A stretch of 64,000 bases of DNA from Luteimonas rhizosphaerae (GTDB lineage: Bacteria > Pseudomonadota > Gammaproteobacteria > Xanthomonadales > Xanthomonadaceae): assembly GCF_002849595.1 (NCBI RefSeq), contig NZ_NRQR01000011.1, positions 1 to 64,000 of the forward strand. Direction: 5' to 3'. The position numbers and the translations under genes are program-made. Below, in pieces: positions 33,037 to 48,208 of the stretch; position 1 is the stretch's first letter; every line of letters starts with the position of its first letter. A model generated the notes under the pieces. It was not told the DNA's origin and made no database searches. It worked only from the letters and a program-made list of their open reading frames with translations.

Positions 33037-34767
33037 TCAGTAGCCCGCGGCCTGCCCGTCCTTGCGCGATTCGCTGGCGCCGACCCAGCCGCCCTCCGGA
33101 TTGACCATGATTGCCTGGTAGCCGCCGTAAGGGCCGTGGGCGAAGCGCACCGAATGGCCCTTCTGCATCAGCGCGCGCACGGTCTCATACGGGAAGCCGG
33201 TTTCCAGATCCAGCTCGCCGCCGTCGGACATCGCGGTGTTCTGGCCGGTGGGTTCGGTGGAACCGTCGTGCTGGATGCGCGGGGCGTCGCCGGCTTCCTG
33301 CAGGTTCATGCCGAAATCGAGCATGTTGATCAGGATCTGCACATGGCCCTGCGGCTGCATCGCGCCGCCCATCACGCCGAACGCCAGCCAGGGCTTGCCG
33401 TCTTTCGTCGCGAACGCGGGAATGATGGTGTGGAAGGGCCGCTTGCCCGGTTCGAACGTATTGGGATGGCCGGGCTTGAGCACGAACTGCTCGCCGCGGT
33501 CCTGCAGGATGAAGCCGAGGCCCGGCGGTGCCATGCCGCTGCCCATGCCGCGGTAGTTGGACTGGATCAGCGAGACCATCATGCCGTCGGCGTCCGCGGT
33601 GGTCAGGTAGATCGTGTCGCCCTCGTCGAGCTGCGCCGGCGTGCCCGGCTGTACTTCGCGCAGCGCGGTGTCCATCGAGATCAGCGCGCCGCGCTCGCGG
33701 GCGTAGTCCTTGGAGATCAGGCGTTCGACAGGCGCGGGATGGAACGCCGGATCGGCGTACCAGCGCGCGCGGTCGGCGAACGCGAGCTTCTTGGCCTCGG
33801 TGAACAGGTGTACGTGCTCGGGGCTGCCGAAGCCGTAGGACGCGAGGTCGTAGGGTTCGAGCAGGTTGAGGATCTGCAGCGCGGCGATGCCCTGTCCGCT
33901 CGGCGGCAGTTCCCACAGCTCGACGCCGCGATACTTCGTCGACACCGGTTCGACCCAGTTGCCTGTGTGCGCGGCCATGTCCTCGTAGGCGAGGAAGCCG
34001 TCGTTGGCGGCGAAGTAGTCGCCGATCACCCGGGCGATGTCGCCCTTGTAGAACGCGTCGCGGCCGCCGTCGGCGATCGCCTGCAGCGTGTTGGCGAGAT
34101 TCGGGTTGCGCCAGGTCTCGCCGGTGCGCGGCGCGCGACCGCCGTCGAGCGTGAACTGCTCGGTGAAGCCCGGCCACTTCGACAGGCGCGGCACCGAGCG
34201 GTCCCAGTAGTAGGCGATCACTTCGGGCACCGGGTGGCCGTCGCGCGCATAGCGGATCGCCGGCGCGAGGTTCTCGGCCATCGTGCGCGTGCCGAAGCGG
34301 CCGTGGAGCGCGAACCAGCCGTCGACGGTGCCGGGCACGGTGACCGGCAGCGGGCCGTGCGGCGGAATGTCGGTCAGGCCACGACGCTGGAACTCGGCGA
34401 GCGTCAGGGATTTCGGCGAGCGCCCGGAGCCGTCGTAGCCGTGCAGTTTCTGCGTCTTCGGATCCCAGACGATCGCGAACAGATCGCCGCCGATACCGTT
34501 GCCGGTCGGCTCCATCAGGCCCAGCGCCGCGTTCGCCGCGATCGCCGCGTCGACCGCGCTGCCGCCGGCCTTCATCACGTCGAGCGCGATCTGGGTCGCC
34601 AACGGGTGCGAGGTCGCGGCCATCGCGTGCGGCGCATAGACCTCGCTGCGAGTCGCGAACGGCTGGCCGGTGATGCGGTCGGCAGCGTGCGCGGACAGGC
34701 CCGGCGCCGCGACCAGCAGCAGGACGGACAGCAGGCGGGCACTGCCACCCAGGACGGATCGGGACAT
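33037..34767 (-). CDS. ggt: Gamma-glutamyltransferase, exported
   Basis: A 576-residue Ntn-hydrolase of the gamma-glutamyltranspeptidase family. A signal peptide covers residues 1-28 (VLLLVAAPGLSAHAA). The large-subunit region contains NGIGGDLFAIVWDPKT. Autocleavage and catalysis are expected at the Thr in EGDTIYLTTADADGMMVSL (usual form TTxxxxxD). The small subunit ends with GVMGGAMQPQGHVQILINML and the PRIQHDG motif. These enzymes remove gamma-glutamyl groups from peptides such as glutathione in the periplasm. It lies 212 bases beyond the cupin regulator on the same strand, so it may belong to the peptide-use locus. I chose the start at 34767 for the signal peptide. Confidence 0.92.
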   Translation of the reverse strand: MSRSVLGGSARLLSVLLLVAAPGLSAHAADRITGQPFATRSEVYAPHAMAATSHPLATQIALDVMKAGGSAVDAAIAANAALGLMEPTGNGIGGDLFAIVWDPKTQKLHGYDGSGRSPKSLTLAEFQRRGLTDIPPHGPLPVTVPGTVDGWFALHGRFGTRTMAENLAPAIRYARDGHPVPEVIAYYWDRSVPRLSKWPGFTEQFTLDGGRAPRTGETWRNPNLANTLQAIADGGRDAFYKGDIARVIGDYFAANDGFLAYEDMAAHTGNWVEPVSTKYRGVELWELPPSGQGIAALQILNLLEPYDLASYGFGSPEHVHLFTEAKKLAFADRARWYADPAFHPAPVERLISKDYARERGALISMDTALREVQPGTPAQLDEGDTIYLTTADADGMMVSLIQSNYRGMGSGMAPPGLGFILQDRGEQFVLKPGHPNTFEPGKRPFHTIIPAFATKDGKPWLAFGVMGGAMQPQGHVQILINMLDFGMNLQEAGDAPRIQHDGSTEPTGQNTAMSDGGELDLETGFPYETVRALMQKGHSVRFAHGPYGGYQAIMVNPEGGWVGASESRKDGQAAGY

Positions 34768-34979
34768 CGGCACTCTCGAATCTGGACGAACGCACACCAT
34801 ACCGTCAGGCCGGGCCGGCGGAACCCGTCGTCGCAGCGAAGATCGTCGCTCGGGGGAATGCCGTTGCCCGGACGGCAAGGATCGGGATGCCTGCAGGGGC
34901 GCGCTTGCGGTCGAGGGCGTTGCCGGCAACGTCGATCGCGCGAACGCGTGCCTCAGGCGGCCGTCGGCATGGCGACGGC

Positions 34980-35687
34980 CTAGCGCTTGGCAGGCTTCTT
35001 CGCGGCGCGCTTCGGGGGCGGCGCGGCGGGCGCGGCGAGCCGGGTGGTTTTGCCCTGGGCGGCGCTCTCCTCGCCGTGCAGGGTGAGCAGCGAGGCCATC
35101 AGCTGTTCGTCCGCGCTCGAGCAGACGCCGAGCAGCAGCACCTCGTCGCACCCTTCGGCTGCGATGTAGGCGTGGCCCATGTTCGAGTCGATGTACACGC
35201 CTTCGCCGGTCTCGAGCACCAGGGGATCGTAGAACTCGGTGTGCACCTCCATGCGGCCTTCGAGCACGTGGATGTATTCCTCGCCGGAATGCCGCACCAG
35301 CGCGCCGAACTCGGCGATGGTCTTGGCGCGCACCCGGGTGAGTACGGGAATCATGCGTTTGCGCCGCAGTTCCGGGCACAAGTAGTAGTAGTCGTAGTTG
35401 GGCGTGGTGACGCGGATCGCGTCGTCGACGCGGCCGACGCTGCGGCGCGCGGTGACCGGGGGATCCGGCGCCTCGGCCTGCTCGGCGAACAGCTCGGACA
35501 TGCGCAGGTTGAGGCGCTGGCTGAGCTGCAGCAGCTTGTCGTAGGTCAGCGTCAGCCGGTCGTGTTCGACCTTCGACAGGGTCGACAGGGGAATGCCGGA
35601 ATGCGCGCTCATCTGCTTGAGCGTCCAGCCCTTGCGGGCGCGCAGCGCGCGCAGCAGGCCGCCGATGGTGGGGTGTGGCGCTGTCAT
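34980..35687 (-). CDS. XRE family regulator with C-terminal cupin
   Basis: A 235-residue transcription factor. The N-terminal helix-turn-helix is IGGLLRALRARKGWTLKQMS followed by GIPLSTLSKVEHDRLTLTYD (residues 8-50). The cupin sensor is at about 110-200 (HSGEEYIHVLEGRMEVHTEF, YIDSNMGHAYIAAEGCDEVL). The C-terminus is a Lys/Ala/Pro-rich tail resembling a nucleic-acid-binding tail. HTH-cupin regulators usually sense amino acids or small metabolites. It is transcribed divergently from the serine hydrolase operon, whose promoter carries the CTGATTGG inverted repeat, so it is the obvious candidate controller of both operons; this is inference. Confidence 0.88.
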   Translation of the reverse strand: MTAPHPTIGGLLRALRARKGWTLKQMSAHSGIPLSTLSKVEHDRLTLTYDKLLQLSQRLNLRMSELFAEQAEAPDPPVTARRSVGRVDDAIRVTTPNYDYYYLCPELRRKRMIPVLTRVRAKTIAEFGALVRHSGEEYIHVLEGRMEVHTEFYDPLVLETGEGVYIDSNMGHAYIAAEGCDEVLLLGVCSSADEQLMASLLTLHGEESAAQGKTTRLAAPAAPPPKRAAKKPAKR

Positions 35688-35808
35688 CCTTCTCGGGTCC
35701 GTTCGTGTTCTCTACGGGATCATCATCGCCGCAGCAGGCGACGGGTGGGAAGGCGCGGTGCCGGTCCCGGCACTGCGCACGGGCTCGACATGGGGACTTC
35801 CGGCACGG

Positions 35809-35848
35809 TTGACAATTCTCTGATTGGGATCACTATCGCCAATCAGGA
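35809..35848 (+). promoter_or_regulatory. Promoter with overlapping inverted repeat, operon 1
   Basis: A consensus TTGACA (35809-35814) is followed five bases later by CTGATTGG (35820-35827), an 11-base spacer, and its perfect complement CCAATCAG (35839-35846). The -10 region must lie within this dyad, so a bound protein would block RNA polymerase. The first 24 bases are identical to those upstream of the TonB receptor gene (42015-42038). It precedes the serine hydrolase start by 18 bases. Confidence 0.82.
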
Positions 35849-35865
35849 CAAATCGGGGCGGTGCC

Positions 35866-37893
35866 ATGCGCGTGAAACCACTATGCCTGTTCGCCGGACT
35901 GCTCGCGGCCGGCCTGGCCCTTGCGGCGCCACAGGAAGCGGCGATCCCACCCGCGCCCGCGACCGCGCCCCTGCCGACATCGGATCAACCCTCGGCGCCG
36001 CCCGCCGCGGTGACGACGGCACCCGGGGCGCCGGACGGCGCGCCGGTCCTGACGCGCGCCGATGCCGAAGCCTGGCTGGATGGTTTCTTCCCTTACGCGC
36101 TGGCGGCGGGCGACATCGCCGGCGCCGTCGTCGTGGTGGTCAAGGACGGCGAGGTGCTGCTGCAGAAGGGCTACGGCCACGCCGACATCGCCAAGGGCAC
36201 GCCGGTCGACCCCGCGGCTACGCTGTTCCGGCCGGGCTCGGTGTCCAAGCTGTTCACCTGGACGGCGGTGATGCAGCTGGTCGAGCAGGGCAAACTCGAT
36301 CTCGACGCCGACGTCAACCAGTACCTCGATTTCGAGATCCCGGCGCGCGACGGCACGCCGCTCACGCTGCGCCAGGCGATGACCCACACCACCGGCTTCG
36401 AGGAGCAGGTCCGCGCGCTGATCACCGCCGACGTCGACGAAGTGACGCCGCTCGGCGTCGCGCTGAAGCACTGGGTGCCCGAGCGCATCCATGTGCCGGG
36501 CGCCACGCCGGCCTATTCGAACTACGCGACCGCGCTGGCCGGCTACATCGTCGAGCGCGTGTCGGGCGAGTCCTTCGACGACTACGTCGAGCGCCACATC
36601 TTCCAGCCGCTGGGCATGGCGCATTCGAGCTTCCGCCAACCGCTGCCGGCACCGCTGCTGGCGGCCATGTCCGCGGGCTACGCCCAGGCATCCGACGGCG
36701 AGGCCAAGCCCTACGAATTCATCAGTCTCGCACCGGCCGGCAGTCTCGCCGCGACCGGCAGCGACATGGGCCGCTTCATGATCGCGCACCTGCAGGACGG
36801 CGCGTTCGGCGATGCGCGCATCCTCAGCGCGGACACCGCGCGGCAGATGCACGCGACCGGCCAGGCATCGGTCGGCCCGCTCAACCGGATGATGCTCGGC
36901 TTCTACGAAACCTCGGTCAACGGCCATCGCGCGATCTCGCACGGCGGCGACACGCAGTGGTTCCACAGCGACCTGCAGCTGTTCCTCGACGACGGCATCG
37001 GCCTGTTCGTGTCGATGAACAGCGCCGGGCGCGACGGCGCCACCGGCCACATCCGTTACGCCCTGTCGCGCGGCTTCGCCGACCGCTATCTGCCCGGACC
37101 GCCGGCCGCGACAGCGGGCGTGCCGGAGGCCGATGCCAAGGCGCATGCACAGCAGCTCGCCGGCACCTACACCAGCAGCCGGCGGCCCGACAGCAATTTC
37201 CTCTCGCTGGCCAACATGATCGGACCGGTCAAGGTGGCGGCGAACGACGACGGCACGATCAGCGTGGCGATGGCGACCACTGCGGGCGGCGCGCCGAAGC
37301 GCTGGCGCGAAGTCGCGCCCTACGTGTGGCAGGACACCGCCAGCACCGACCGGCTGGCGGCGGACGTCGTCGACGGCGAGGTGCTGCGTTTCAGCATGGA
37401 ACCCTATGCCCCGATCATGGTGTTCGAGCGCGTGGCGGCGTGGCGGGGGGTGGCGATGCCGCTGCTGGTCGCGAGCCTCGTCGTGCTGCTCCTGACCGTC
37501 GTCGCGTGGCCGGTGTCGGCCCTGGTCCGGCGCTACTACGGCGCGCCCTACCGGCTGACCGGCACCGACGCGCGCGCGCATCGCCTGGTGCGCATCGCCG
37601 CGCTGCTGGTGTTGCTGGCGATGGGCGCGGCGCTGGCGCTCGTCGTCGGCATGCTGAGCAAGCTGGAGATGACCAGCCCGGATACCGATGGCCTGATCAT
37701 CGCCATGCGCCTGTTCGCCACCGTGGTGCTGCCGCTCGGCGCGGCGGTCGCGGTCTGGAACGCCTGGCAGGCGCTGCGCGGCAGGCGCCGGGTGCTGGCC
37801 AAGCTGTGGGCGGTGGTGCTCGCGCTGGCCTGCCTGTTCGTGCTGTGGATCGGCGTCACCCATCACGTGATCGGCTTCGGCGCGAACTACTGA
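35866..37893 (+). CDS. Serine hydrolase (class C beta-lactamase fold) with C-terminal membrane domain
   Basis: A 675-residue protein. A signal peptide (residues 1-21) precedes a Pro/Ala-rich linker and a penicillin-binding-protein-like domain: SxxK at GSVSK (Ser125), YxN at AYSNYA (Tyr216), and an HGG triad near residue 358 (SHGGDTQWF). After residue 510 come four hydrophobic segments, an inner-membrane domain. The fold is shared by DD-peptidases, D-aminopeptidases, esterases and beta-lactamases; its operon partners (epimerase, peptide permease, D-amino-acid deacylase) favour a D-amino-acid peptidase. It is first in operon 1. The start at 35866 begins the signal peptide. Confidence 0.88.
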   Translation: MRVKPLCLFAGLLAAGLALAAPQEAAIPPAPATAPLPTSDQPSAPPAAVTTAPGAPDGAPVLTRADAEAWLDGFFPYALAAGDIAGAVVVVVKDGEVLLQKGYGHADIAKGTPVDPAATLFRPGSVSKLFTWTAVMQLVEQGKLDLDADVNQYLDFEIPARDGTPLTLRQAMTHTTGFEEQVRALITADVDEVTPLGVALKHWVPERIHVPGATPAYSNYATALAGYIVERVSGESFDDYVERHIFQPLGMAHSSFRQPLPAPLLAAMSAGYAQASDGEAKPYEFISLAPAGSLAATGSDMGRFMIAHLQDGAFGDARILSADTARQMHATGQASVGPLNRMMLGFYETSVNGHRAISHGGDTQWFHSDLQLFLDDGIGLFVSMNSAGRDGATGHIRYALSRGFADRYLPGPPAATAGVPEADAKAHAQQLAGTYTSSRRPDSNFLSLANMIGPVKVAANDDGTISVAMATTAGGAPKRWREVAPYVWQDTASTDRLAADVVDGEVLRFSMEPYAPIMVFERVAAWRGVAMPLLVASLVVLLLTVVAWPVSALVRRYYGAPYRLTGTDARAHRLVRIAALLVLLAMGAALALVVGMLSKLEMTSPDTDGLIIAMRLFATVVLPLGAAVAVWNAWQALRGRRRVLAKLWAVVLALACLFVLWIGVTHHVIGFGANY

Positions 37894-37904
37894 CGCTCCC
37901 GCGT

Positions 37905-37926
37905 GCCGGCGGCGTTGGCCGCCGGC
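37905..37926 (+). terminator. Hairpin between serine hydrolase and epimerase genes
   Basis: GCCGGCGGC pairs with GCCGCCGGC around a GTTG loop, in the 63-base gap of operon 1. No T run follows, so it is more likely an RNA stability or attenuation element than a full terminator. Confidence 0.4.
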
Positions 37927-37956
37927 GCTCCGCCCATGTCCTGACGAGGTGCGCGC

Positions 37957-38967
37957 GTGACTGCCGAGCCGGTCGAACTCGAGTTGCACAACGAACCCCT
38001 GCCGATGTCCGCGCCGTTCCGGATCGCCGGGCACGTGTTCGAGGCGATGCCGGCCACCGTGGTGACCCTGCGCGCCGGCGAGCATGTCGGACGCGGCGAA
38101 GGCGCCGGTGTGTACTACACGGGCGATCAACCGGACACGATGCTGGCCACGCTGGAGGCGATGCGGCCCCGCATCGAGGCGGGGCTCGATCGCGCGACGC
38201 TGCGCACGCTGCTGCCCGCCGGCGGCGCCCGCAATGCGCTCGACGCGGCGTTGTGGGAACTCGAAGCGCAGCGCAGCGGCGTGCCGGTCTGGCGGCTCGC
38301 CGGGCTCGAACGCGTGCGGCCGCTGCTCACCACCTTCACCGTCGGCGCCGACGCCCCCGACGTCATGGCCGATCGCGCCGCGGCCTACACGCAGGCGCGT
38401 GCGCTGAAGCTGAAGCTGACCGGCGACGCGGACCTCGACGCGGCGCGCGTCCGCGCGGTGCGCGCGCGCTGCCCGGCGGCGTGGATCGGCGTCGATGCCA
38501 ACCAGGGCTACGACGGCGCATCGCTGCCGGCCCTGCTGCCGGCGCTGCTGGAAGCGGGCGTGGCGCTGCTGGAGCAGCCCTGCGTCCGCGACCGCGAACA
38601 CGAACTCGACGGCATCGCGCGCGCACTGCCGTTCGCCGCCGACGAAAGCATCCTCGATCTCGCCGAACTCGAAGCGCGCCACCACCACTTCGACGTCATC
38701 AACATCAAGCTCGACAAGTGCGGCGGCCTGACCGAAGGGCTGCTGATGGCGCACCGCGCGCGCGCGCTCGGCAAGCAGGTCATGGTCGGCAACATGTGCG
38801 GCACCAGTCTGGCGGCGGCGCCCGCGTTCGTGCTCGGCCAGTTCTGCGACGTGGTGGATCTGGACGGCCCGATCTTCCTCAAACAGGACCGCACGCCGTC
38901 GGTGCGTTACAGCGACGGCCACATCTGGTGCGGCGACGAGGTCTGGGGGCCGTCGGCGACGGCATGA
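37957..38967 (+). CDS. Enolase-superfamily epimerase (dipeptide epimerase or DgcA-like N-acyl-Glu racemase)
   Basis: A 336-residue enolase-superfamily enzyme of the MLE subgroup. The catalytic lysine is in ALKLKLTGD (KxK), the metal ligands in IGVDANQGY, LLEQPC and AADESI, and the second lysine in INIKLDKCGG. The end has VMVGNMCGTSLAAAPA and VDLDGPIFLKQD, where the DxD motif is used by L-Ala-D/L-Glu epimerases to hold the substrate amino group. DgcA, which racemises N-acetyl-D-Glu, belongs to the same group; a DUF1611 (DgcN-like) gene in operon 2 makes that reading attractive. Start is GTG at 37957. Its stop overlaps the POT permease start. Confidence 0.88.
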   Translation: MTAEPVELELHNEPLPMSAPFRIAGHVFEAMPATVVTLRAGEHVGRGEGAGVYYTGDQPDTMLATLEAMRPRIEAGLDRATLRTLLPAGGARNALDAALWELEAQRSGVPVWRLAGLERVRPLLTTFTVGADAPDVMADRAAAYTQARALKLKLTGDADLDAARVRAVRARCPAAWIGVDANQGYDGASLPALLPALLEAGVALLEQPCVRDREHELDGIARALPFAADESILDLAELEARHHHFDVINIKLDKCGGLTEGLLMAHRARALGKQVMVGNMCGTSLAAAPAFVLGQFCDVVDLDGPIFLKQDRTPSVRYSDGHIWCGDEVWGPSATA

Positions 38968-40226
38968 GCAGCGTCGCCGACAAGACCTGGTTCGGTCAGC
39001 CACGCGGGCTGACGATCCTGTTCTTGACCAACATGTGGGAGCTGTTCTCCTACTACGGCATGCGCACGCTGCTGGTCTATTACATGACCAAGCAGTTGCT
39101 GTTCGCGCAGGAAAAGGCGTCCTTCATCTACGGCGCGTACACGGCGATGGCGTACTTCACGCCGATCCTCGGCGGCGCCATCGCCGACCGCTGGCTGGGC
39201 AAGCGCAACGCGGTGATCATCGGCGGCAGCATCATGGCCTTCGGCCATTTCGTAATGGCGTTCGAGCCGACGTTCTACATCGCGCTGGCGACCATCGCGC
39301 TCGGCAACGGCCTGTTCCTGCCCAGCCTGCCGAGCCAGATCAACGATCTCTACGCCGCCGACGATCCCCGCCGCGGCCGCGCCTACAACGTCTACTACGT
39401 CGGCCTGAACATCGGCGGCTTCATGGCGCCGCTGGTGTGCGGCACGCTGGGCGAGGTCTACGGCTGGCACTACGGCTTCGGCGCCGCCGGCATCGGCATG
39501 TTCATCGGTCTGCTGATCTACGTGTTCGGCCGCCGCTACCTGCCGCCCGAGCCGGCGCGCGGCGTGGCGCGCGTCGTGGATGCGCAGGCGGTGCGCGGCA
39601 ACCATCGCAAGGTGTGGCTGCTGCTGCTCGGCGTCGGGATCGCGGCGACCATCTTCCGCGGTGCCTACGAGCAGGTCGGCAACACGCTGCCGCTGCTGAT
39701 CGACACCGGTGTGGACCGGGTGGTCGCAGGCTTCACCATTCCGATGACGTGGTTCCAGTCGCTCAATCCGCTGCTGGTGATCAGCATGACGCCGTTGCTG
39801 CTGCTGCACTGGCGGCGCCGCGCCGAGGCCGGACAGGAAACCGCGCCTGCGCTGCGCATGGCGATCGGCGCGCTGATCGTGGCGGGTGCCTACGTGCTGC
39901 TGGCCGCGGTGACGGCCGTCGCTGGCGACACCCGCATCGGCTGGCTGTGGCTGGTCGCGTTCTTCGTGATCCTGACGCTCGGCGAGCTCTACATCCTGCC
40001 GACCGGCCTCGGCCTGTTCGCCAGGCTCGCGCCGCCGCGACTGGGCGCGACCACGGTGGCCTCGTGGTTCCTCGCGGTCTTCAGCGGCAGTCTGCTGGCG
40101 GGCCTGGTCGGCACGCTGTGGTCGAAAGCCAGCCATTCCGGCTTCTTCCTGCTGCTCGCCGGCCTGGCCGTCGTGGCCGCCGCCTTGCTGTGGCGCCTGG
40201 ATCGCCCGATCCGCGCGCTGCGATGA
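38964..40226 (+). CDS. POT/PTR2 family proton-coupled peptide transporter
   Basis: A 420-residue major facilitator of the POT family, with about 12 hydrophobic segments. Family signatures are MWELFSYYGMRTLLVYYM in helix 1 (the E-x-x-F-Y-Y/R proton and peptide site), ILGGAIADRWLGKRNAVIIGG in the helix 2-3 loop, and GLNIGGFMAPLVCGTLGEVYG. POT proteins import di- and tripeptides with protons across the inner membrane. The start at 38964 overlaps the epimerase stop (ATGA). It would deliver dipeptides to that enzyme. Confidence 0.93.
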   Translation: MSSVADKTWFGQPRGLTILFLTNMWELFSYYGMRTLLVYYMTKQLLFAQEKASFIYGAYTAMAYFTPILGGAIADRWLGKRNAVIIGGSIMAFGHFVMAFEPTFYIALATIALGNGLFLPSLPSQINDLYAADDPRRGRAYNVYYVGLNIGGFMAPLVCGTLGEVYGWHYGFGAAGIGMFIGLLIYVFGRRYLPPEPARGVARVVDAQAVRGNHRKVWLLLLGVGIAATIFRGAYEQVGNTLPLLIDTGVDRVVAGFTIPMTWFQSLNPLLVISMTPLLLLHWRRRAEAGQETAPALRMAIGALIVAGAYVLLAAVTAVAGDTRIGWLWLVAFFVILTLGELYILPTGLGLFARLAPPRLGATTVASWFLAVFSGSLLAGLVGTLWSKASHSGFFLLLAGLAVVAAALLWRLDRPIRALR

Positions 40227-40257
40227 TCTGCTTCATCCCGCACAGGAGTTTTCCGCC

Positions 40258-41970
40258 ATGCCGCGTCTAACGCTCGCCCTGCTGCCGCTCGCCCTCGCCG
40301 CCTGCAGCACCGCGCCGGTGGTCGACAAGCCCGCGCAGTACGACCTGCTGATCCGCAACGGCCTGGTCTACGACGGCAGTGGCGCGCCGCCGCAGCGCGT
40401 CGACGTGGCCGTGCGTGGCGACCGCATCGCGGCGTTGCTGCCGCCGGGCAGCGGCGCGGCCGCCGACAAGACGCTCGACGCGCAGGGTCGCGCGGTCTCC
40501 CCGGGCTTCATCAACACCCTGAGCTGGGCGACCGAATCGCTGATCGTCGACGGCCGCGGCATCAGCGATACCAAGCAGGGCATCACCCTGGAAATGTTCG
40601 GCGAAGGCTGGTCGATGGGCCCGGTCAACGCGCGCATGAAGGCCGATGCACTCAAGCAGCAGGGCGACCTCCGCTACGACATCCCGTGGACCTCGTTCGG
40701 CGGCTACCTCGAGTTCCTCGAGCAGCGCGGCATCACGCCGAACGTCGCCTCGTTCGTCGGTGCGACCACGGTGCGCATCCACGAACTCGGCGAAGACGAC
40801 GTCACCCCGACGCCCGTGCAGCTCGCTGGCATGCAGGACGTGGTGCGCCAGGCGATGCGCGAAGGTGCGCTCGGCGTCGGCAGCTCGCTGATCTATCCGC
40901 CGGCGACGTTCGCCGACACCGCCGAACTCATTGCGCTGGCGCAGGCGGCCGCGGAATCGGGCGGGGGTTATGTCTCGCACATGCGCAGCGAGGCCGACCG
41001 CTTTCTCGAGGCGCTCGACGAGACCATCGCCATCGCCCGCGCCACCGGCCAGCGCGCCGGCGTGTACCACCTCAAGGCCGCGGGCGAGCAGAACTGGCCG
41101 AAGATGGCGCAGGCCATCGCCCGGATCGAAGCCGCGCGCGCCGAAGGCCTGCAGGTCAGCGCCGACATGTACGCCTACACCGCCGGCGGCACCGGCCTGA
41201 CCGCGAGCCTGCCGCCGTGGGTCCAGGCCGGCGGCCACGACGCGATGATCGCGCGGCTGCGCGACCCCGCCATCCGCGCGCGCGTGCTGGCGGACATGCG
41301 CGCGCCCGGCGTCGACTGGGAAAACCTGCGGCTGCTGGCGGGCTCCGACGAACGCCTGCTGCTGCTCGACTTCCGCAGCGCGGCGCTCAAGCCGCTCAGC
41401 GGCCGTACCCTGGCCGACGTCGCGCGCGAACGCGGCACCTCGCCGGAAGACACCGCGATCGACCTGATCGTCGAGGACGATTCCCGGATCGGCACCGCGT
41501 ACTTCCTGATGAGCGAAGCGAACGTCGAGCTCGGGCTGAAACAGCCGTGGGTCAGCCTGGGATCGGACGCGGAATCGTCGGCGCCCGAAGGCGTATTCCT
41601 CACGTCCAGCACGCATCCGCGCGGCTACGGCAACGTCGCGCGCTTCCTCGGGCACTACGTGCGCGACCGCAAGCTGATGCCGCTGGAGGAGGGCATCCAT
41701 CGCCTGACCGGACTGCCGGCCGCGAACTGGAAACTCGCCGATCGCGGCTGCCTGCGCCCCGGCTGCTACGCCGACATCGTGGTGTTCGACCCGGCCACGA
41801 TCATCGACCACGCGACCTACGACGCTCCCCGGCAGTACGCGGCCGGCGTCGGCGAAGTTTTCGTCAACGGCGTCCAGGTGCTGCGCGATGGCGAACACAC
41901 CGGCGCCACACCGGGGCGCGTGGTGCGCGGCCCGGGCTGGCAACCGTCGACGGCTGCCGCTGGCGAGTGA
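40258..41970 (+). CDS. N-acyl-D-amino-acid deacylase family lipoprotein
   Basis: A 570-residue amidohydrolase. The N-terminus is a lipoprotein signal (ALLPLALAACST, Cys15), so it works in the periplasm. Family marks: YDLLIRNGLVYDGSG, GRAVSPGFINTLSWATESL, EGALGVGSSLIYPPATFA, GGYVSHMRSEADRFLEALDE, VYHLKAAGEQNW, and SLGSDAESSAPEG. The usual metal HxH after PGFI reads NTL here; related exported members share this, so it need not mean loss of activity. D-aminoacylases release D-amino acids from N-acyl forms. It is last in operon 1; the conserved promoter of operon 2 follows 44 bases after its stop. Confidence 0.88.
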   Translation: MPRLTLALLPLALAACSTAPVVDKPAQYDLLIRNGLVYDGSGAPPQRVDVAVRGDRIAALLPPGSGAAADKTLDAQGRAVSPGFINTLSWATESLIVDGRGISDTKQGITLEMFGEGWSMGPVNARMKADALKQQGDLRYDIPWTSFGGYLEFLEQRGITPNVASFVGATTVRIHELGEDDVTPTPVQLAGMQDVVRQAMREGALGVGSSLIYPPATFADTAELIALAQAAAESGGGYVSHMRSEADRFLEALDETIAIARATGQRAGVYHLKAAGEQNWPKMAQAIARIEAARAEGLQVSADMYAYTAGGTGLTASLPPWVQAGGHDAMIARLRDPAIRARVLADMRAPGVDWENLRLLAGSDERLLLLDFRSAALKPLSGRTLADVARERGTSPEDTAIDLIVEDDSRIGTAYFLMSEANVELGLKQPWVSLGSDAESSAPEGVFLTSSTHPRGYGNVARFLGHYVRDRKLMPLEEGIHRLTGLPAANWKLADRGCLRPGCYADIVVFDPATIIDHATYDAPRQYAAGVGEVFVNGVQVLRDGEHTGATPGRVVRGPGWQPSTAAAGE

Positions 41971-42014
41971 CGGCACGCCTGCGGGCCACGCCTGCCGCTT
42001 ATTTTCCGGACGTG

Positions 42015-42054
42015 TTGACAATTCTCTGATTGGGATCATGATCCCTGATCAGGA
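42015..42054 (+). promoter_or_regulatory. Promoter with overlapping inverted repeat, operon 2
   Basis: TTGACA (42015-42020), then CTGATTGG (42026-42033) and, in the same register as operon 1, CTGATCAG (42045-42052). A 14-base perfect palindrome GGGATCATGATCCC lies inside. The first 24 bases equal those at 35809-35832 and ATCAGGA is also kept at the same offset. This strongly implies one regulator for both operons. It precedes the TonB receptor start by 22 bases. Confidence 0.82.
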
Positions 42055-42076
42055 TAATCGTCTGGGGAGACAACCG

Positions 42077-44419
42077 ATGCACGCGTTCCGGTCCACACGT
42101 CCTTGGTTCCGTTCACCGTTGTCCCTCGCCATCGCCAGCACCCTGGCATGCGCTGCCGGATCGCCCGTCCTGGCGCAGGACACCACCGACAGCACGCCGC
42201 CGCCGCAGGCCGTCGATGCGGTGACCCTCGATTCGGTTGTCGTCACCGCCAACAAGCGCGTCGAGAACGTCCGCGACGTCGGCGCCTCGATCAGCGTGAT
42301 CAACGAACGCCAGCTGGAGAACATGGGCGCGAGTTCGCTGTCCGACTACGCGGCGCTCATTCCTGGCCTGCAGGTGCAGAGCAGCGGCACGCCCGGCTTG
42401 ACCTCGGTCTCGCTGCGCGGCATCTCGGCGCTGTCGTCGGGCGCCACCGTGGCCACGTACATCGACGAGGTGCCCGTCGGCTCGAGCGGCATCTACCAGA
42501 GCGCGGGTTCGCTGATGCTGGACCTGCTGCCCTACGACATCAGCCGCGTCGAAGTGCTGCGCGGCCCGCAGGGCACGCTGTACGGCGCCGGCGCGATCGG
42601 CGGCCTGCTCAAGTACGTGACGCGATCCCCGGACCTGGTCCACGACGAGTTCCGCATCGGCTTCGGCGGGCGTTCGGTCGCCGACGGCGGCCAGGACTGG
42701 AACGGCCGCATCGGCGCCAGCGTGCCCCTGCAGGAAGACCGCCTGGGCCTGCGCATGAGCTTCGCGCGCAACGGTCTGCCGGGCTATACCGACAATGCCA
42801 TCGACGGCCGCCGCGACATCAACGACAGCGAACAGGTCGGCGGGCGCGCGGCGCTGTCCTGGGACGGCGACACGGTCGACGCCGATCTGGCGGTCCTGCA
42901 CCAGCGCATCAACGCCGGCGACCGGGCCGTGGTCGCACTCGATGCCGACACCTACGCCCCGCTCGGCGGCGAATTCGAGGGCAGGAGCTGGCAGCGGCAG
43001 CCGTTCTCGAAGGAGCTGACGCTGACCTCGCTCAGCGTGACCTGGGACCTCGGCTGGGCGGACCTGGTGTCCGCGACCGGCTGGTCGGAAACCGAGACCC
43101 TGGACCAGATCGATGCCACGGTGCAGTTCGGCGAAGTCGCCGACCTGCTGCTGGGCCTGCCGGCGCCCGGCAGCTCGAACGTGCGCTACACCTTCGACCT
43201 CGACAAGATCACCCAGGAAGTGCGCCTGAGCTCCCGGACCGGCGGTCGCTTCGAGTGGATGGCGGGCGTGTTCTACACCAAGGAGGACGCGCTGCAGAGC
43301 CAGGTCGCGTGGCTGGGCCAGCGTGACGGCTCGCCGCTGCCGGCGCCGTTCGACACGATGTTCGGCACCCTCGCGGTGATCGACCTGCCGAGCACCTACG
43401 AGGAAGTCGCCGTGTTCGCGAACGCCTCGTGGCGGTTCGGCGAGCGCTTCAAGCTCGACGCCGGCCTGCGCCAGGCGCGCAACGACCAGTGGTTCAGCCA
43501 GAACGTCAGCGAGGGCATCCTCGCGCCGATCGGCGATGCGCCCGGCGAATCGACCGAAGACGTGTTCACCTGGAGTTTGAGCCCGCAGTTCAAGCTGGCC
43601 GAGGACACGCTGCTGTACGCACGCGTCGCCACCGGCTACCAGCCCGGCGGCCCCAACGTCGCCCTGCCGGGCATTCCGCCGAGCGTGGACTCCTCGATGC
43701 TGGCGAGCTACGAGGCCGGCCTGAAATCGCAGTTTGCCGATCGCCGGGTGCAGGTCGACGTGTCCGCGTTCCGCATCGAATGGGACGACATCCAGGTGGC
43801 GTCGTCGTTCAACGGCATCGGCGGCCTGGTCAACGGCGGCGAGGCGAGCAGCGAGGGCCTGGAGCTGGCCTCGCAGTTCCGCGCCACTGAGGCGCTGTCG
43901 CTCGGCGTCAACGCGGCCTACACCCGGGCGCGGGTGAAGAACGATTTCGAAGCCACGGTCATTCCGCAGGGCGATTTCGACGTGGTCCTCAACACCGGCC
44001 TGGCCGGCGACCGCATGCCCTACGTGCCGACGCTGTCGTGGGCCACGACCGCCGAATACGCGTTCATCACCCCCGGGGGACTCGCGGGCCAGGTCGGCGC
44101 GGTATTGCGCTGGACCGGCGAGCGGCTCAACGGCACGACCGAACGCCAGCGGGTCACCGCGCCCGGCGATCCGTCGACCGTGCTGCAGGAAGACGTGACG
44201 GCGCCGCTGCGGCTCGACAGCTACCGCGCGCTCGACCTCTACGCCGGCATCGGCGGCGAGCACTGGGAACTGCGCGGCTACGTCAGCAATGCCACCGGCG
44301 AAACGGGCTGGTCGTCGCTGGAACCGGCCGAGGGCGCGCTCAGCGGCGCGGTGTCGTACCTGGCCGCGGTGCCGATCCTGCCGCGCACCTTCGGCGTCGA
44401 ATTCGACGTCCGGTTCTGA
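42077..44419 (+). CDS. TonB-dependent outer-membrane receptor
   Basis: A 780-residue receptor. A signal peptide (residues 1-34, ending SPVLAQ) leads to a TonB box-like DSVVVTANK, then the plug domain (RDVGASISVINERQLENMGA, RVEVLRGPQGTLYGAGAIGG) and a 22-strand barrel ending in the C-terminal Phe (GVEFDVRF). It would carry the system's substrate across the outer membrane using TonB energy. By context that is a peptide or murein fragment rather than a siderophore. It is first in operon 2. The start at 42077 lies after a GGGGAGA ribosome site. Confidence 0.94.
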   Translation: MHAFRSTRPWFRSPLSLAIASTLACAAGSPVLAQDTTDSTPPPQAVDAVTLDSVVVTANKRVENVRDVGASISVINERQLENMGASSLSDYAALIPGLQVQSSGTPGLTSVSLRGISALSSGATVATYIDEVPVGSSGIYQSAGSLMLDLLPYDISRVEVLRGPQGTLYGAGAIGGLLKYVTRSPDLVHDEFRIGFGGRSVADGGQDWNGRIGASVPLQEDRLGLRMSFARNGLPGYTDNAIDGRRDINDSEQVGGRAALSWDGDTVDADLAVLHQRINAGDRAVVALDADTYAPLGGEFEGRSWQRQPFSKELTLTSLSVTWDLGWADLVSATGWSETETLDQIDATVQFGEVADLLLGLPAPGSSNVRYTFDLDKITQEVRLSSRTGGRFEWMAGVFYTKEDALQSQVAWLGQRDGSPLPAPFDTMFGTLAVIDLPSTYEEVAVFANASWRFGERFKLDAGLRQARNDQWFSQNVSEGILAPIGDAPGESTEDVFTWSLSPQFKLAEDTLLYARVATGYQPGGPNVALPGIPPSVDSSMLASYEAGLKSQFADRRVQVDVSAFRIEWDDIQVASSFNGIGGLVNGGEASSEGLELASQFRATEALSLGVNAAYTRARVKNDFEATVIPQGDFDVVLNTGLAGDRMPYVPTLSWATTAEYAFITPGGLAGQVGAVLRWTGERLNGTTERQRVTAPGDPSTVLQEDVTAPLRLDSYRALDLYAGIGGEHWELRGYVSNATGETGWSSLEPAEGALSGAVSYLAAVPILPRTFGVEFDVRF

Positions 44420-44439
44420 GCCGAGCGGACCCCAGCCCG

Positions 44440-45480
44440 ATGTCGACTGCCGCTCCGCTGCCGCGGGATTCCGACGCGTTGCCGCAACCGTATCTGCTGT
44501 TCCTCGGCGACACCGTCGAGCCCGGTTATGCGAAGACCGCGTTCGGTCTGCGCGACTGGGCGCCCGAGCGGTGCCTCGGCGAGTTCGCCTGCGACGGCGC
44601 GACCGTCAGCACCGGCTTGCCGCGCCTCACGCCCGTCCAGGCGCGCGCGCTCGGCGCACGCGCGATGGTCATCGGCGTCGCCAATCCGGGCGGGCGGATC
44701 CCGCCGGCCTGGGTGCCGGCCCTGCTCGAAGCGCTGCAGGCGGGGCTGGATCTGGTCGGCGGCATGCACGCCCGGCTCGCCGGTATCGACGTGCTGCGCC
44801 ACGCGGCGGTCGTGCACGGACGCCGCCTCATCGACGTGCGCGAGCCGCCGTCGGACCTGCCGGTCGCCACCGGCCGCAAGCGTACCGGCCGGCGCCTGCT
44901 GACCGTCGGCACCGACTGCGCACTGGGCAAGAAGTACACCGCGCTGGCGCTGGCGCGCGCGTTCCGCGAGCGCGGGCACGACGCGACGTTCCGCGCCAGC
45001 GGTCAGACCGGCATCCTGATCGCCGGCGCCGGCGTGCCGATGGACGCGGTGGTCGCGGACTTCGCGGCCGGCGCCGCGGAACTGCTGTCGCCGGATGCCG
45101 ACGCCGCGCACTGGGACGTCATCGAAGGCCAGGGCTCGCTGTCGCATCCGGCCTATGCCGGGGTGTCGCTGTCGCTGCTGCACGGCAGCCAGCCCGACAT
45201 CATCGTGGTCTGCCACGCGCACGGGCGCGAGCGCATGCTCGGGCACGCGCACTTTCCGGTGCCGTCGCTCGAGGACACCATCGACCTCGCGTTGCGGCTC
45301 GGCGCCCGCACCAACCCCGGCATCCGCTGCGCGGGCATCAGCCTCAACACCGCCGCCCTCGACGCCGACGCGGCGCAGGCGGCGATCGATGCGACCGCCG
45401 CCCGCCTGGGCCTGCCGGTGGCCGATCCGATCCGCGGCGGCGACGCGTTCGCCCGTCTGGTCGACGCCTGCCTGGCATGA
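44440..45480 (+). CDS. DUF1611 family protein, DgcN-like (putative D-glutamate N-acetyltransferase)
   Basis: A 346-residue cytoplasmic protein with the two DUF1611 parts. An N-terminal Rossmann-like half contains YLLFLGDTVEPGYAKTAFGL and VIGVANPGGRIPPAW. A C-terminal P-loop half contains LTVGTDCALGKKYTALALAR near residue 157, FRASGQTGILIAGAGVPMDA, and WDVIEGQGSLSHPAYAGVSL. DgcN, characterised in marine proteobacteria as D-glutamate N-acetyltransferase working with the racemase DgcA, belongs to this family; by homology this is a fair candidate. It follows the TonB receptor by 20 bases and overlaps the next start (ATGA). Confidence 0.85.
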   Translation: MSTAAPLPRDSDALPQPYLLFLGDTVEPGYAKTAFGLRDWAPERCLGEFACDGATVSTGLPRLTPVQARALGARAMVIGVANPGGRIPPAWVPALLEALQAGLDLVGGMHARLAGIDVLRHAAVVHGRRLIDVREPPSDLPVATGRKRTGRRLLTVGTDCALGKKYTALALARAFRERGHDATFRASGQTGILIAGAGVPMDAVVADFAAGAAELLSPDADAAHWDVIEGQGSLSHPAYAGVSLSLLHGSQPDIIVVCHAHGRERMLGHAHFPVPSLEDTIDLALRLGARTNPGIRCAGISLNTAALDADAAQAAIDATAARLGLPVADPIRGGDAFARLVDACLA

Positions 45481-46592
45481 CCTCGACGTCCTCCTGGTTC
45501 CAGCGCTACCTGCTGCCGGGCTTCGTGTTCCAGGCGGCGGTGATCGCCGGCGGCTATGCGACCGGGCGCGAACTGGTCGAGTTCTTCCTGCCGGCCGGTC
45601 CCTGGGGCGGCCTGCTCGGCATGGCGGTCAGCATGCTGGTGTGGAGCGCGGTGCTGATGGTCAGCTTCGAGCTGGCCCGGGTCGCGCGCGCCTTGGACTA
45701 CCGCACGTTCTTCAAACTGTTGCTGGGCCGCGGCTGGTTCGCGTTCGAGATCGGCTACGTGCTGCTCATGCTCGTGATCCTGGCGGTCATGGGCGCGGCC
45801 GCCGGCGAGATCGCCTTCAGCCTGTTCGGCCTGCCGAAGCTGGCGGGTTCGCTGGCGATGATCATCGCGACCGGCGCGCTGCTGTTCTGCAGCAGCGCCG
45901 CGATCGAGAAGTTCCTGGTCGCCTCGGTCGGCTATCTGTATCTGGTCTACGTGGTGTTCGTGGTCTGGGCAGTGGTCGCGTTCGGCGACCGCATCGCCGA
46001 CAACTTCGCCGCAGTGCCGGTCGACGGCGGCTGGTTCAAGGCCGGCGTGACCTACGCCGGCTACAACGTCGCCACCATTCCGGCGGTGCTGTTCTGCGTG
46101 CGTCACTTCGGCCGTCGCCGCGAGGCGTTCGCCGCCGGCGCGCTCGCCGGGCCGCTGGGCATGCTGCCGGGCGTGGTGTTCTACATCGCGATGGTCGGTT
46201 ACTACGACGAGATCGCGGCCGAGGCGCTGCCGTCGGCGTTCCTGCTGGCCAAGCTGCAGGCGCCGTGGTTCGAGTGGGTGTTCCAGCTGGCGGTGATGCT
46301 GACCCTGGTCGACACCGGCGTCGCGCTGCTGCACGCGATCAACGAACGGGTCGCGAATGCGTGGGCCGAGCGGCAACGCCCGATGCCGCGCGCGCTGCGT
46401 CCGGCGCTCGCCGTCGGGGTGATGCTGGTCGCGGTGTATGCCGCCACGGCGGTCGGTCTGGTCGACCTGATCGCCACGGGCTACGGCACGCTCACCTGGT
46501 ATTTCCTGGCGATCTACGTATTGCCGCTGATGACCTGGGGCGTGTGGCTGCTGTGGCGCCGCAGGCCGGTCGAAGCGACCCCCCTGCCTTGA
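45477..46592 (+). CDS. YkvI-like membrane transporter
   Basis: A 371-residue membrane protein with about ten hydrophobic segments. The N-terminal GFVFQAAVIAGGYATGRELVEFF is the signature of YkvI-type permeases, distantly related to the amino-acid/sodium symporters of the APC superfamily. The substrate is unknown; an acidic amino acid or N-acyl amino acid fits the operon. The start overlaps the DUF1611 stop by 4 bases, implying that the two act on the same compound. Confidence 0.85.
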   Translation: MTSTSSWFQRYLLPGFVFQAAVIAGGYATGRELVEFFLPAGPWGGLLGMAVSMLVWSAVLMVSFELARVARALDYRTFFKLLLGRGWFAFEIGYVLLMLVILAVMGAAAGEIAFSLFGLPKLAGSLAMIIATGALLFCSSAAIEKFLVASVGYLYLVYVVFVVWAVVAFGDRIADNFAAVPVDGGWFKAGVTYAGYNVATIPAVLFCVRHFGRRREAFAAGALAGPLGMLPGVVFYIAMVGYYDEIAAEALPSAFLLAKLQAPWFEWVFQLAVMLTLVDTGVALLHAINERVANAWAERQRPMPRALRPALAVGVMLVAVYAATAVGLVDLIATGYGTLTWYFLAIYVLPLMTWGVWLLWRRRPVEATPLP

Positions 46593-46624
46593 ACGACGCG
46601 TCCGCGAGGACGGGAGAAGCGGTC

Positions 46625-48208
46625 ATGTCGAAGTCCCTGCCGACCCTCGTTGCGGCGCTCGCCTCGCTGCTGGCCCTCACCGCCGCCGCCGCGCCGCCCG
46701 CCGGTTTCGATGCGCGGGTCGAGGCCGCGATGCGCAGCCGCGACGTGCCGGGCATGGCGATCGCGATCGTCGAGGACGGCGAGATCGTGCACGCCAAGGG
46801 CTATGGCGTCCGCCGGCTCGGCGCGCCCGAGCGCGTCGACGCCGACACGATCTTCCCGACCGGTTCCACCGGCAAGGCGGTGACGGCGGCGGCGCTCGCT
46901 CTCCTCGTCGACGACGGCAAGCTCGACTGGGACGACCCGGTCATCGACCACCTGCCCGACTTCCGCATGTACGACCCGTGGGTCACGCGCGAGATGACCG
47001 TGCGCGACCTGCTGCTGCATCGCAGTGGCCTGGGTCTCGGCGCGGGCGATCTGCTGTTCATCCCGCGCACGTCGCGCAGCCGCGCGGACATCGTGCGCGC
47101 GCTGCGGCATCTGCGCCCGGCGACGAGTTTCCGCAGCGGCTACGCCTACGACAACATCCTCTACATCGTCGCCGGCGAGCTGGTGACCGTGGTGAGCGGG
47201 CAACCCTGGGAAACCTTCGTGCGCGATCGCATCTTCGCGCCGCTGCAGATGCGCACCGCGACCAGCGACGAGCAGGACCGCTTCGCCACCGCGAACCGGG
47301 CGCAGCCACACGCGCGACTGGACGCGCGCCTGCGCGGCCTCGGCCCGCAACAGGTGCTGCCGGAACTTGAAGGCCTCGGCCAGGTGGGCGCGCCCGCCGG
47401 CGGCCTGTCGTGGAGCGCACACGATTTCGCGCGCTGGCTGCAGGTGCAGCTCGCGCTCGGCGCGCTGCCGGACGACCGTGGCCGCCTCTACAGCGAGGCG
47501 GTGGCGCATGCGATGTGGACGCCGCAGGTGCCGGTGCCGATCCACCCGTATCCGGCGCCGATCACCGACATCACGCCGCAGTTCTCCGGCTACGCGCTGG
47601 GCTGGAACGTGCAGGACTACCGCGGCGTCAAGGTGGTGCAGCACGGCGGCGCGGTGTTCGGCGTGCTGGCCTTCACCGTGCTGGTGCCCGAACGCAATCT
47701 GGGCATCTCGCTGCAGATCAACGCCGAGGATGTCGAAGTCCTGCGCGGCCTGGGGTTCGAACTGCTCGACCATTACCTCGGCTTCGAACCCCGCGACTGG
47801 GTGGCGGCGTTCACGACCTGGAACCGGACGCGTCTCGCCGACGGCCTCGCCGCGCTGGACGCGGCGGGCGCGCAGGCGCGCACGACGTCGCGCCCGTCGC
47901 TGCCGACCGGCGGCTATGCCGGCGCCTACACCGACGCGTGGTACGGCCCGATCGCCGTCACCGAGGCGGACGGCACGTTGCGGATCGACTTCCGCCAGAC
48001 GCCCGGCATGCAGGGCACGCTGACCCACTGGCAGTTCGACACCTTCCGCGTCGACTGGGACGACGCCGCGATCGAACCGGCCTATGCCGCGTTCGCGCTG
48101 GACGCCGAGGGCAAGGTCGCGCAGATCCGCATGCAGGCGGTCTCGCCGACGGCGGATTTCAGCTACGACTATCACGACCTGCTGTTCGAACCGCAGGCGG
48201 CGGACTGA
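46625..48208 (+). CDS. Serine hydrolase (beta-lactamase fold), exported
   Basis: A 527-residue protein with a signal peptide (ALASLLALTAAAA). The catalytic core has GSTGKAVTAAALALL (Ser81, SxxK), GYAYDNILYIVAGE (YxN near residue 177) and VVQHGGAVFGVLAF (HGG). The C-terminal 120 residues form a DUF3471-like beta domain (YAGAYTDAWYGPIAVTEADG). It differs from the first serine hydrolase in lacking membrane helices. By context it is probably a D-stereospecific peptidase or amidase; esterase activity is the alternative. It ends operon 2. Confidence 0.9.
   Translation: MSKSLPTLVAALASLLALTAAAAPPAGFDARVEAAMRSRDVPGMAIAIVEDGEIVHAKGYGVRRLGAPERVDADTIFPTGSTGKAVTAAALALLVDDGKLDWDDPVIDHLPDFRMYDPWVTREMTVRDLLLHRSGLGLGAGDLLFIPRTSRSRADIVRALRHLRPATSFRSGYAYDNILYIVAGELVTVVSGQPWETFVRDRIFAPLQMRTATSDEQDRFATANRAQPHARLDARLRGLGPQQVLPELEGLGQVGAPAGGLSWSAHDFARWLQVQLALGALPDDRGRLYSEAVAHAMWTPQVPVPIHPYPAPITDITPQFSGYALGWNVQDYRGVKVVQHGGAVFGVLAFTVLVPERNLGISLQINAEDVEVLRGLGFELLDHYLGFEPRDWVAAFTTWNRTRLADGLAALDAAGAQARTTSRPSLPTGGYAGAYTDAWYGPIAVTEADGTLRIDFRQTPGMQGTLTHWQFDTFRVDWDDAAIEPAYAAFALDAEGKVAQIRMQAVSPTADFSYDYHDLLFEPQAAD

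Follow-up and report, generated by a model that had tools for sequence, protein, structure and literature searches.

To our knowledge, the recycling of D-amino acids beyond D-alanine and D-glutamate, and of peptides with D-residues, is poorly known in bacteria. For D-glutamate, a DgcN-DgcA pathway was reportedly described by Yu et al. in 2023 (ISME J 17:537), a study cited in PMC12363236. The pathway is treated in the excerpt of PMC10845958 and represented by NCBIfam models. Among the related L-Ala-D/L-Glu epimerases (AEEs), K162 and K268 of Bacillus subtilis YkfB are catalytic (excerpt of PMC5808125). A further system, the microcystin-degrading mlr cluster, comprises MlrA, MlrB, MlrC, the oligopeptide transporter-like MlrD, and MlrE and MlrF, a dipeptidase and a D-aminoacylase (excerpts of PMC6563193 and PMC4520899). 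Here we analysed a locus with members of these families in a 64,000-nucleotide stretch of Luteimonas rhizosphaerae (contig NZ_NRQR01000011.1, positions 1 to 64,000), referred to as the window. The locus is a real, conserved and co-regulated cassette and a variant of the DgcN-DgcA route. Judged from its sequences, it would serve to consume D-amino-acid-containing peptides or N-acyl compounds, probably with racemisation of a non-acidic D-amino acid, a reading to which we give about an even chance. A previous interpretation of the DNA (the sequence-only reading) had proposed a D-glutamate or murein catabolic locus; the uptake, hydrolysis and epimerisation of D-peptides are supported, and D-glutamate or murein as the specific substrate is not.

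A conserved cassette under a shared promoter-operator

DgcN was located at 58 places in 247 genomes of the bacterial family, and 55 loci besides that of the window were analysed (G141:C297 and G176:C328 were left out), with genes called by a simple home-made codon-bias script. They comprise 38 loci of type II, like the window, 11 of type I, five of type III and one outlier (L054). All 38 type II loci contain a TonB receptor, DgcN, DgcA and the S12 hydrolase SH1, and most contain a second S12 hydrolase, SH2 (32), the XRE-cupin regulator (31), the YkvI-like transporter (30) and the POT symporter (28); the D-aminoacylase-like gene is present in 16. In some of them the transporter adjoining dgcA is a DUF819 protein. 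An M19 membrane dipeptidase, of which one looks exported, was found in 7/38, the co-occurrence counts being family-level BLAST matches and 24 of 48 M19 matches only 20-29% identical to the reference. In one locus (L091:14870-16990) DgcA and the DUF819 transporter form a single 706-aa frame, a possible fusion or lost stop.

The gene set also recurs widely beyond the family. A scan of genome contigs with 17 DgcA rows gave at least 563 related stretches, a figure that is no count of type II since one of the two patterns was general. The best 80 of these, the named loci, include 77 distinct ones (L101, L102 and L103 repeat the family genomes L095, L074 and L061) and come from Luteimonas, Lysobacter, Stenotrophomonas, Sphingopyxis, Sphingomonas, Novosphingobium, Caulobacter, Massilia, Roseateles, Steroidobacter, Dyella, metagenome-assembled genomes (MAGs) and others. 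With 26 set aside as too short, the co-occurrence table compares 54 full-length loci, three of them repeats of family genomes (L106 is without gene calls). They carry an S12 hydrolase in 52 cases, any TonB receptor in 48, the regulator and DgcN in 44 each, an M19 or D-aminoacylase homologue in 42, YkvI in 41 and POT or DUF819 in 28. This co-occurrence supports the earlier proposal of a co-regulated locus for uptake, hydrolysis and epimerisation of D-residue peptides with DgcN/DgcA-family enzymes. Among the matches listed, three Luteimonas and a Pseudoxanthomonas MAG hold the nearest named relatives of the window dgcA (80-85%). The DgcA alignment matched 42 of 369 genomes sampled evenly from the class, 12 of them strongly (E<1e-70); the weaker matches are probably other enolase relatives. 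A dgcA relative (64%) also lies on a contig labelled as a Verrucomicrobia MAG (L106), which may be a binning error.

As for regulation, the proposal of two operons in one regulon is strengthened by a 24-bp element, TTGACAATTCTCTGATTGGGATCA, present in exact form at 35809 and 42015, ahead of both operons, where none would be expected in the window. A related 18-base pattern has 19 sites genome-wide (3.64 Mb) at up to two mismatches; only those at 35809 and 42015 have no mismatch, and one further site has one. Of the 77 distinct intergenic regions between regulator and SH1, 60 contain the promoter-operator expression (63 of 80 if the three repeated genomes are counted twice), with the consensus TTGACAATTcTCtaATcAGGATCATTAT, and the full palindrome TCCTGATCAGGA is visible in some other loci. 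A matrix trained on 62 of these promoter-operator regions matched 35 of the 38 type II family loci, 30 of them at two or more sites, and 54 of 77 further distinct named loci. It gave no match in the 11 type I loci, the five type III loci, L054 or a reversed-sequence control of 2.54 Mb. Matches in distinct loci outside the training set (n = 82) lie upstream of TonB receptors (41), SH1-type genes (17), M19 genes (13) and, for the rest, others. Both the cassette and its promoter-operator recur across a range of bacteria, among them sphingomonads, Caulobacter, Massilia and Stenotrophomonas. The regulator gene is divergent from the cassette in the 31 type II family loci in which it is present; by its position the XRE-cupin protein would bind the promoter-operator, and it is a probable ligand-responsive repressor of the regulon.

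The eight genes in two operons, with a regulator and ggt, that the sequence-only reading described are all present in the window as open frames at or near the places it gave (Table 1). A list of open reading frames filtered by GC content at third codon positions holds six of the ten, and a codon-bias gene caller, trained on these same genes, recovers all ten, some with a later start. Gene identities were taken from Pfam and NCBIfam profile matches. Overlaps of 4 bases join dgcA to pot and dgcN to the YkvI-like gene, and where dgcA and pot are neighbours they overlap in 53 of 62 pairs, a count in which three genomes enter twice. The gene ggt, previously counted with the cassette, was rejected as a member: it was found in 0/38 type II family loci and 1/54 full-length named loci, counts which a ggt beyond the regulator would escape, as many loci stop near that gene.

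Table 1. Genes and promoter-operators of the locus (positions in the window)
Feature	Position	Strand	Evidence and remarks
ggt	33037-34767	-	PF01019; adjoins the cassette, outside the conserved set
XRE HTH + cupin regulator	34980-35687	-	HTH_3 and Cupin_2 above cut-off
Promoter-operator 1	35809-35844	+	TTGACA box, overlapping TCTGATTGGGA / CCAATCAGGA boxes; matrix score 55.3
SH1, exported S12 serine hydrolase (beta-lactamase family)	35866-37893	+	PF00144, E 3.4e-62
Type II DgcA, racemase/epimerase of the enolase superfamily, substrate loops altered	37957-38967	+	NCBIfam DgcA 338.5 bits, tree, fixed residue differences
POT/PTR2 peptide symporter	38964-40226	+	PF00854; MlrD in the same clade
D-aminoacylase-family lipoprotein, HxH lost, Glu at Cys ligand position	40258-41970	+	PF07969; lipobox by eye
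Promoter-operator 2	42015-42050	+	Exact 24-bp repeat; matrix score 44.9
TonB-dependent receptor	42077-44419	+	PF00593 + PF07715
Type II DgcN (DUF1611), predicted D-amino-acid N-acyltransferase	44440-45480	+	NCBIfam DgcN 438.7 bits
YkvI-like transporter, APC-type fold	45477-46592	+	AlphaFold2 model, mean predicted local distance difference test score (pLDDT) 87
SH2, exported S12 hydrolase + DUF3471 domain	46625-48208	+	PF00144, PF11954

Type II DgcA and DgcN

The DgcN tree (56 rows) and the DgcA tree (50 rows) split into the same three groups; no DgcA was called in four of the 11 type I loci, and the L091 fusion was omitted from the tree. The groups differ in their neighbours. Type I loci carry gltS (9/11), a LysR regulator (7/11) and, in 6/11 each, GGT, an HxH-bearing D-aminoacylase homologue and a TonB receptor, and neither gltS nor LysR was found in any of the 38 type II family loci. 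Seven genomes (G032, G072, G244, G097, G063, G194 and G191) hold both types. Two enzymes of the same function in one genome are possible, yet the different transporters and regulators that accompany types I and II within one genome make a different substrate more likely. Type III (L058, L063, L069, L071 and L072) is accompanied by a LuxR-type regulator in 5/5 and an S58 peptidase in 4/5 loci. The outlier L054 is placed next to type I by its DgcN and next to type II by its DgcA; its dgcA and dgcN (L054:4566-10206) are non-adjacent and on opposite strands, its DgcN scores above the curated cut-off and its DgcA loops are type II-like.

Scores against curated models set the window proteins apart. 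The window DgcA reached 338.5 bits with the NCBIfam model for the DgcA N-acetyl-D-Glu racemase (NF042940), below its curated cut-off of 400, vs. 434 and 436 bits for the type I proteins tested and 407 for one of type III. The window DgcN, 48% identical to 7xrj over 306 columns, scored 438.7 bits with the model for the DgcN D-Glu N-acetyltransferase (NF041892; cut-off 480), vs. 520 bits for the type I protein tested. With the L-Ala-D/L-Glu epimerase model (NF011708) the window DgcA gave 208 bits, below the cut-off of 343. In the DgcA reference tree, type II and L054 form a separate clade (98/92), and type I joins Agrobacterium 4gfi and the E. coli AEE with values (90/94) under the mark for strong support. 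The epimerase thus stands outside the group of type I DgcA and AEE; the grouping that the sequence-only reading had named as refuting, with a muconate or succinyl-amino-acid enzyme, did not appear by score either, and the co-occurrence of the genes elsewhere also counts against the refutation it had named. The best structural matches of an AlphaFold model of the type II DgcA (DgcA-II) are still 4gfi and the E. coli AEE.

Residues around the substrate differ in a fixed manner. In AEEs, Arg24 binds the gamma-carboxylate of glutamate. The 20s loop of DgcA reads I-[AS]-R-G in types I and III, 4gfi and the E. coli AEE, and mostly I-[AST]-G-[HY] in type II: the Arg is present in 5/5 type I rows with residues there (2/7 are gapped) and in 4/4 of type III, vs. 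Gly in 37/38 type II rows (one gap). Position 54 is Arg in 7/7 type I, Tyr in 4/4 type III and Tyr in 38/38 type II rows; at position 279 the Cys of types I and III is replaced by Asn in all 38 rows of type II. The named loci follow the same pattern, with G at position 25 in 65, Y or F at 54 in 69 and N at 279 in 60 of the 69 DgcA rows that were long enough (11/80 DgcA and 5/59 DgcN rows were dropped for length). In DgcN, position 267 is Arg in 11/11 type I proteins and 7xrj, Leu in 39/39 of type II and 49/54 named rows, and Val or Ile in type III. Taken together, these changes make it likely, as far as sequence can tell, that the substrate side chain of DgcA-II and the type II DgcN (DgcN-II) is non-acidic. 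The residues K151, K153, D180, E206, D229, E230, K251 and K254 of DgcA are invariant in 119 aligned rows, and we take them to include the counterparts of the catalytic YkfB lysines and the metal ligands. The DxD motif, put forward as evidence for a dipeptide epimerase, was rejected as a discriminator, since all three types have it, as do all four AEE-type references extending that far.

Hydrolases, transporters and the likeness to mlr genes

Both S12 hydrolases have the SxxK and YxN motifs of their family and export signals recognised by eye. SH1 carries S125xxK, Y217xN and H359GG, with about four C-terminal transmembrane helices by hydropathy, and SH2 carries S81xxK, Y175xN and H340GG. Their relatives in the PDB include 2qmi, presumably Pab87, and the alkaline D-peptidase 4y7p for both, ClbP for SH2, and also many class C beta-lactamases. 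Pab87, alkaline D-peptidase and ClbP prefer D-residues. In four Stenotrophomonas and Caulobacter loci, dgcN and ykvI are separated by a gene of the class A beta-lactamase family (L118:18317-19276, L130:15765-16799, L132:18135-19139 and L147:17947-18954); the L118 protein scores 244 bits vs. a general class A cut-off of 200.

The nearest PDB entries to the D-aminoacylase-like lipoprotein are 1m7j and 1rjp, the Alcaligenes faecalis D-aminoacylase, which ranks first also for the one type I homologue searched. In the lipoprotein and relatives of the window type (at least 56% identity) the HxH motif and the metal-binding Cys are replaced, the place of the Cys being taken by a conserved Glu, and two His and the Asp remain. 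A similar loss is seen in most cassette homologues at greater distance (36-39%), and the six type I homologues retain HxH. E. coli NagA is also without HxH and uses Glu/His/His. Set against the definition of subtype V D-aminoacylases in the excerpt of PMC12017989, the lipoprotein has HxH and Cys replaced and the His, His and Asp kept, a point on which the D-acylase label given to it earlier needs correcting.

The YkvI-like protein was previously called a permease. No Pfam, NCBIfam or PDB sequence match backs this family assignment; its AlphaFold2 model does have an APC-type fold. Foldseek matches span BasC, AdiC and LAT1 as well as Nramp metal and LeuT-type transporters, and thus more than one substrate class. 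Five loci, from four sphingomonads and an alphaproteobacterial MAG (L133, L141, L160, L164 and L177), have a gene for a Glu/Leu/Phe/Val-type dehydrogenase next to the cassette, accompanied in 4/5 by an Lrp/AsnC regulator. For the two dehydrogenases tested, the tryptophan dehydrogenase model was best, at scores below its cut-off; this neighbour is weakly suggestive of a neutral amino acid as the substrate.

For comparison with the mlr genes, a search with a published mlrA primer gave no match in five Sphingomonadales genomes and one match, with one mismatch, in 397 genomes. The match lies in an apparent complete mlr cluster (L209:2855-11216) of the sphingomonad genome G994, in which genes were assigned by their sizes as published, by the primer match in mlrA and by the start of mlrB. 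Relative to the window, its POT is 46% identical and its S12-type gene 32% over 165 residues, with matches of 25% for M19 and 32% for the D-aminoacylase homologue; a TonB receptor is nearby. Within this 19.9-kb stretch no match to DgcN, DgcA, YkvI, XRE or the operator was found. Elsewhere in G994, a type II-like dgcA adjoins a POT gene. A tree of 43 POTs, which drew on 30 sampled cassette POTs, unites MlrD with 32 cassette POTs in a single clade (100/97) and keeps ten other POTs of the same genomes outside it, the MlrD branch being so long that its placement is unsure. These sequence comparisons support a gene pool common to the cassette and the mlr cluster, and do not yet support direct descent.

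Predicted route, alternatives and comparison with known systems

From gene content and order, conservation, promoter-operator, paralogy and residue changes we infer the following route, with its non-acidic side chain. The TonB receptor would carry the peptide into the periplasm, where the two S12 hydrolases would cleave it and the D-aminoacylase-like lipoprotein, or the M19 dipeptidase in relatives, would release the D-residue. M19 enzymes prefer D-residues at the carboxyl side of the amide, and both release enzymes would free the residue on that side. POT would take up small peptides and the YkvI-like carrier the amino acid. DgcN-II is then predicted to N-acylate the D-amino acid and DgcA-II to racemise the N-acyl-amino acid via two-base proton transfer, with a deacylase encoded outside the cassette yielding the L-amino acid; the XRE-cupin protein would repress both operons until its ligand is sensed.

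It could be argued that DgcN-II and DgcA-II convert D-Glu or L-Ala-D-Glu released from murein, like canonical DgcN/DgcA or an AEE, since the best NCBIfam models for the two proteins are those of DgcN and DgcA, the nearest structures are 4gfi and the E. coli AEE, and ggt adjoins the cassette in this genome. Yet both proteins fall under the curated cut-offs, type II (98/92) stands apart from the clade of type I, 4gfi and the E. coli AEE (90/94), the Arg residues are lost, neither gltS nor ggt was found in the 38 type II family loci, and seven genomes keep a separate type I set. With the Arg residues lost, the scores under the cut-offs and gltS-linked type I loci standing separately, D-Glu or murein is not retained as the specific substrate, and we consider this explanation unlikely. 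We likewise think it improbable that DgcA-II is a dipeptide epimerase acting on L-Xaa-D-Xaa imported by POT, with DgcN-II handling free D-amino acids apart. The dgcA-pot overlap in 53 of 62 pairs and the kept DxD motif would fit such a role, as would a 50s loop resembling 'GIFITGET' in 3jva, a dipeptide epimerase from E. faecalis that is also without the Arg in its 20s loop. However, dgcA is present in 38/38 family loci found via dgcN, and dgcN in 44/54 full-length named loci found via dgcA; the two genes split into the same types; and the M19 dipeptidase of 7/38 family loci, one seemingly exported, would destroy dipeptides outside. That the cassette, mlr-like, is specialised for one non-ribosomal peptide or beta-lactam class rather than for D-peptides generally appears very improbable: although it shares four families with MlrB, MlrD, MlrE and MlrF, MlrD groups with its POTs (100/97) and some Stenotrophomonas and Caulobacter loci have the class A beta-lactamase-family gene, its spread over many genera and several proteobacterial orders would point to a common substrate, and the position of MlrD, on its very long branch, is unsure.

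Several observations weigh against a cassette that inverts non-acidic D-amino acids from D-peptides or N-acyl compounds. The substrate role of the 20s-loop Arg is one we take from the AEE literature, and in a pairwise alignment R24 of YkfB pairs with His26 of type II, not with Gly25. The residue after Gly25 is His or Tyr in type II, and Arg in 1/38 family and 3/69 named rows. Type III keeps the 20s-loop Arg but is without Arg at DgcA 54 and DgcN 267, a combination indicating that the Arg changes are not tied together. The dehydrogenase neighbour occurs in just 5/80 named loci (3/54 full-length). The motif is without a match in 23 of the 77 distinct named loci, some of the 23 being short, and the gene calls rest on a home-made script. 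Within the cassette, no gene was recognised as an N-acyl-L-amino-acid deacylase, and some neighbours have no family assignment. Finally, by analogy, the lipoprotein may be NagA-like, or else inactive because mutating either His of HxH abolished the activity of PpOngB (excerpt of PMC12017989).

We would also suggest, at a little less than an even chance, that N-acylation followed by racemisation may be a general bacterial route, not one confined to D-Glu. In it, a sister DgcN/DgcA lineage that is spread over alpha-, beta- and gammaproteobacteria and has an XRE-cupin regulon to itself would invert D-amino acids with non-acidic (perhaps hydrophobic or aromatic) side chains after their release from D-peptides, and the mlr operon may be built from the same gene families. 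The cassette is found in many proteobacterial genera, its regulon is clear and its enzymes are few, and it predicts activities that are testable. Labelling all DgcN/DgcA relatives as 'D-glutamate catabolism' in surveys may merge at least three paralogous types, and the cassette suggests a possible origin of microcystin-degradation genes.

No description of the cassette was found in titles and abstract openings of the open-licence literature, most subscription papers lying outside that scope, and no murein endopeptidase was recognised among its genes. The cassette resembles the mlr cluster in its S12-type hydrolase, POT-type transporter, dipeptidase and D-aminoacylase homologue, with a TonB receptor nearby in L209; the mlr cluster has MlrA and MlrC. 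E. coli YcjG and B. subtilis YkfB (excerpt of PMC5808125) are similar to DgcA-II in fold, two catalytic Lys and a DxD-type motif, but DgcA-II belongs to another clade and its 20s and 50s loops are altered. With the DgcN-DgcA pathway the cassette shares both enzyme families as a pair, and type I loci also have D-aminoacylase homologues and TonB receptors. Unlike that pathway, the window enzymes form a paralogous clade below the cut-offs, with the Arg residues lost, and the cassette is without gltS and LysR and has the XRE-cupin regulator, POT, YkvI and the pair of S12 hydrolases.

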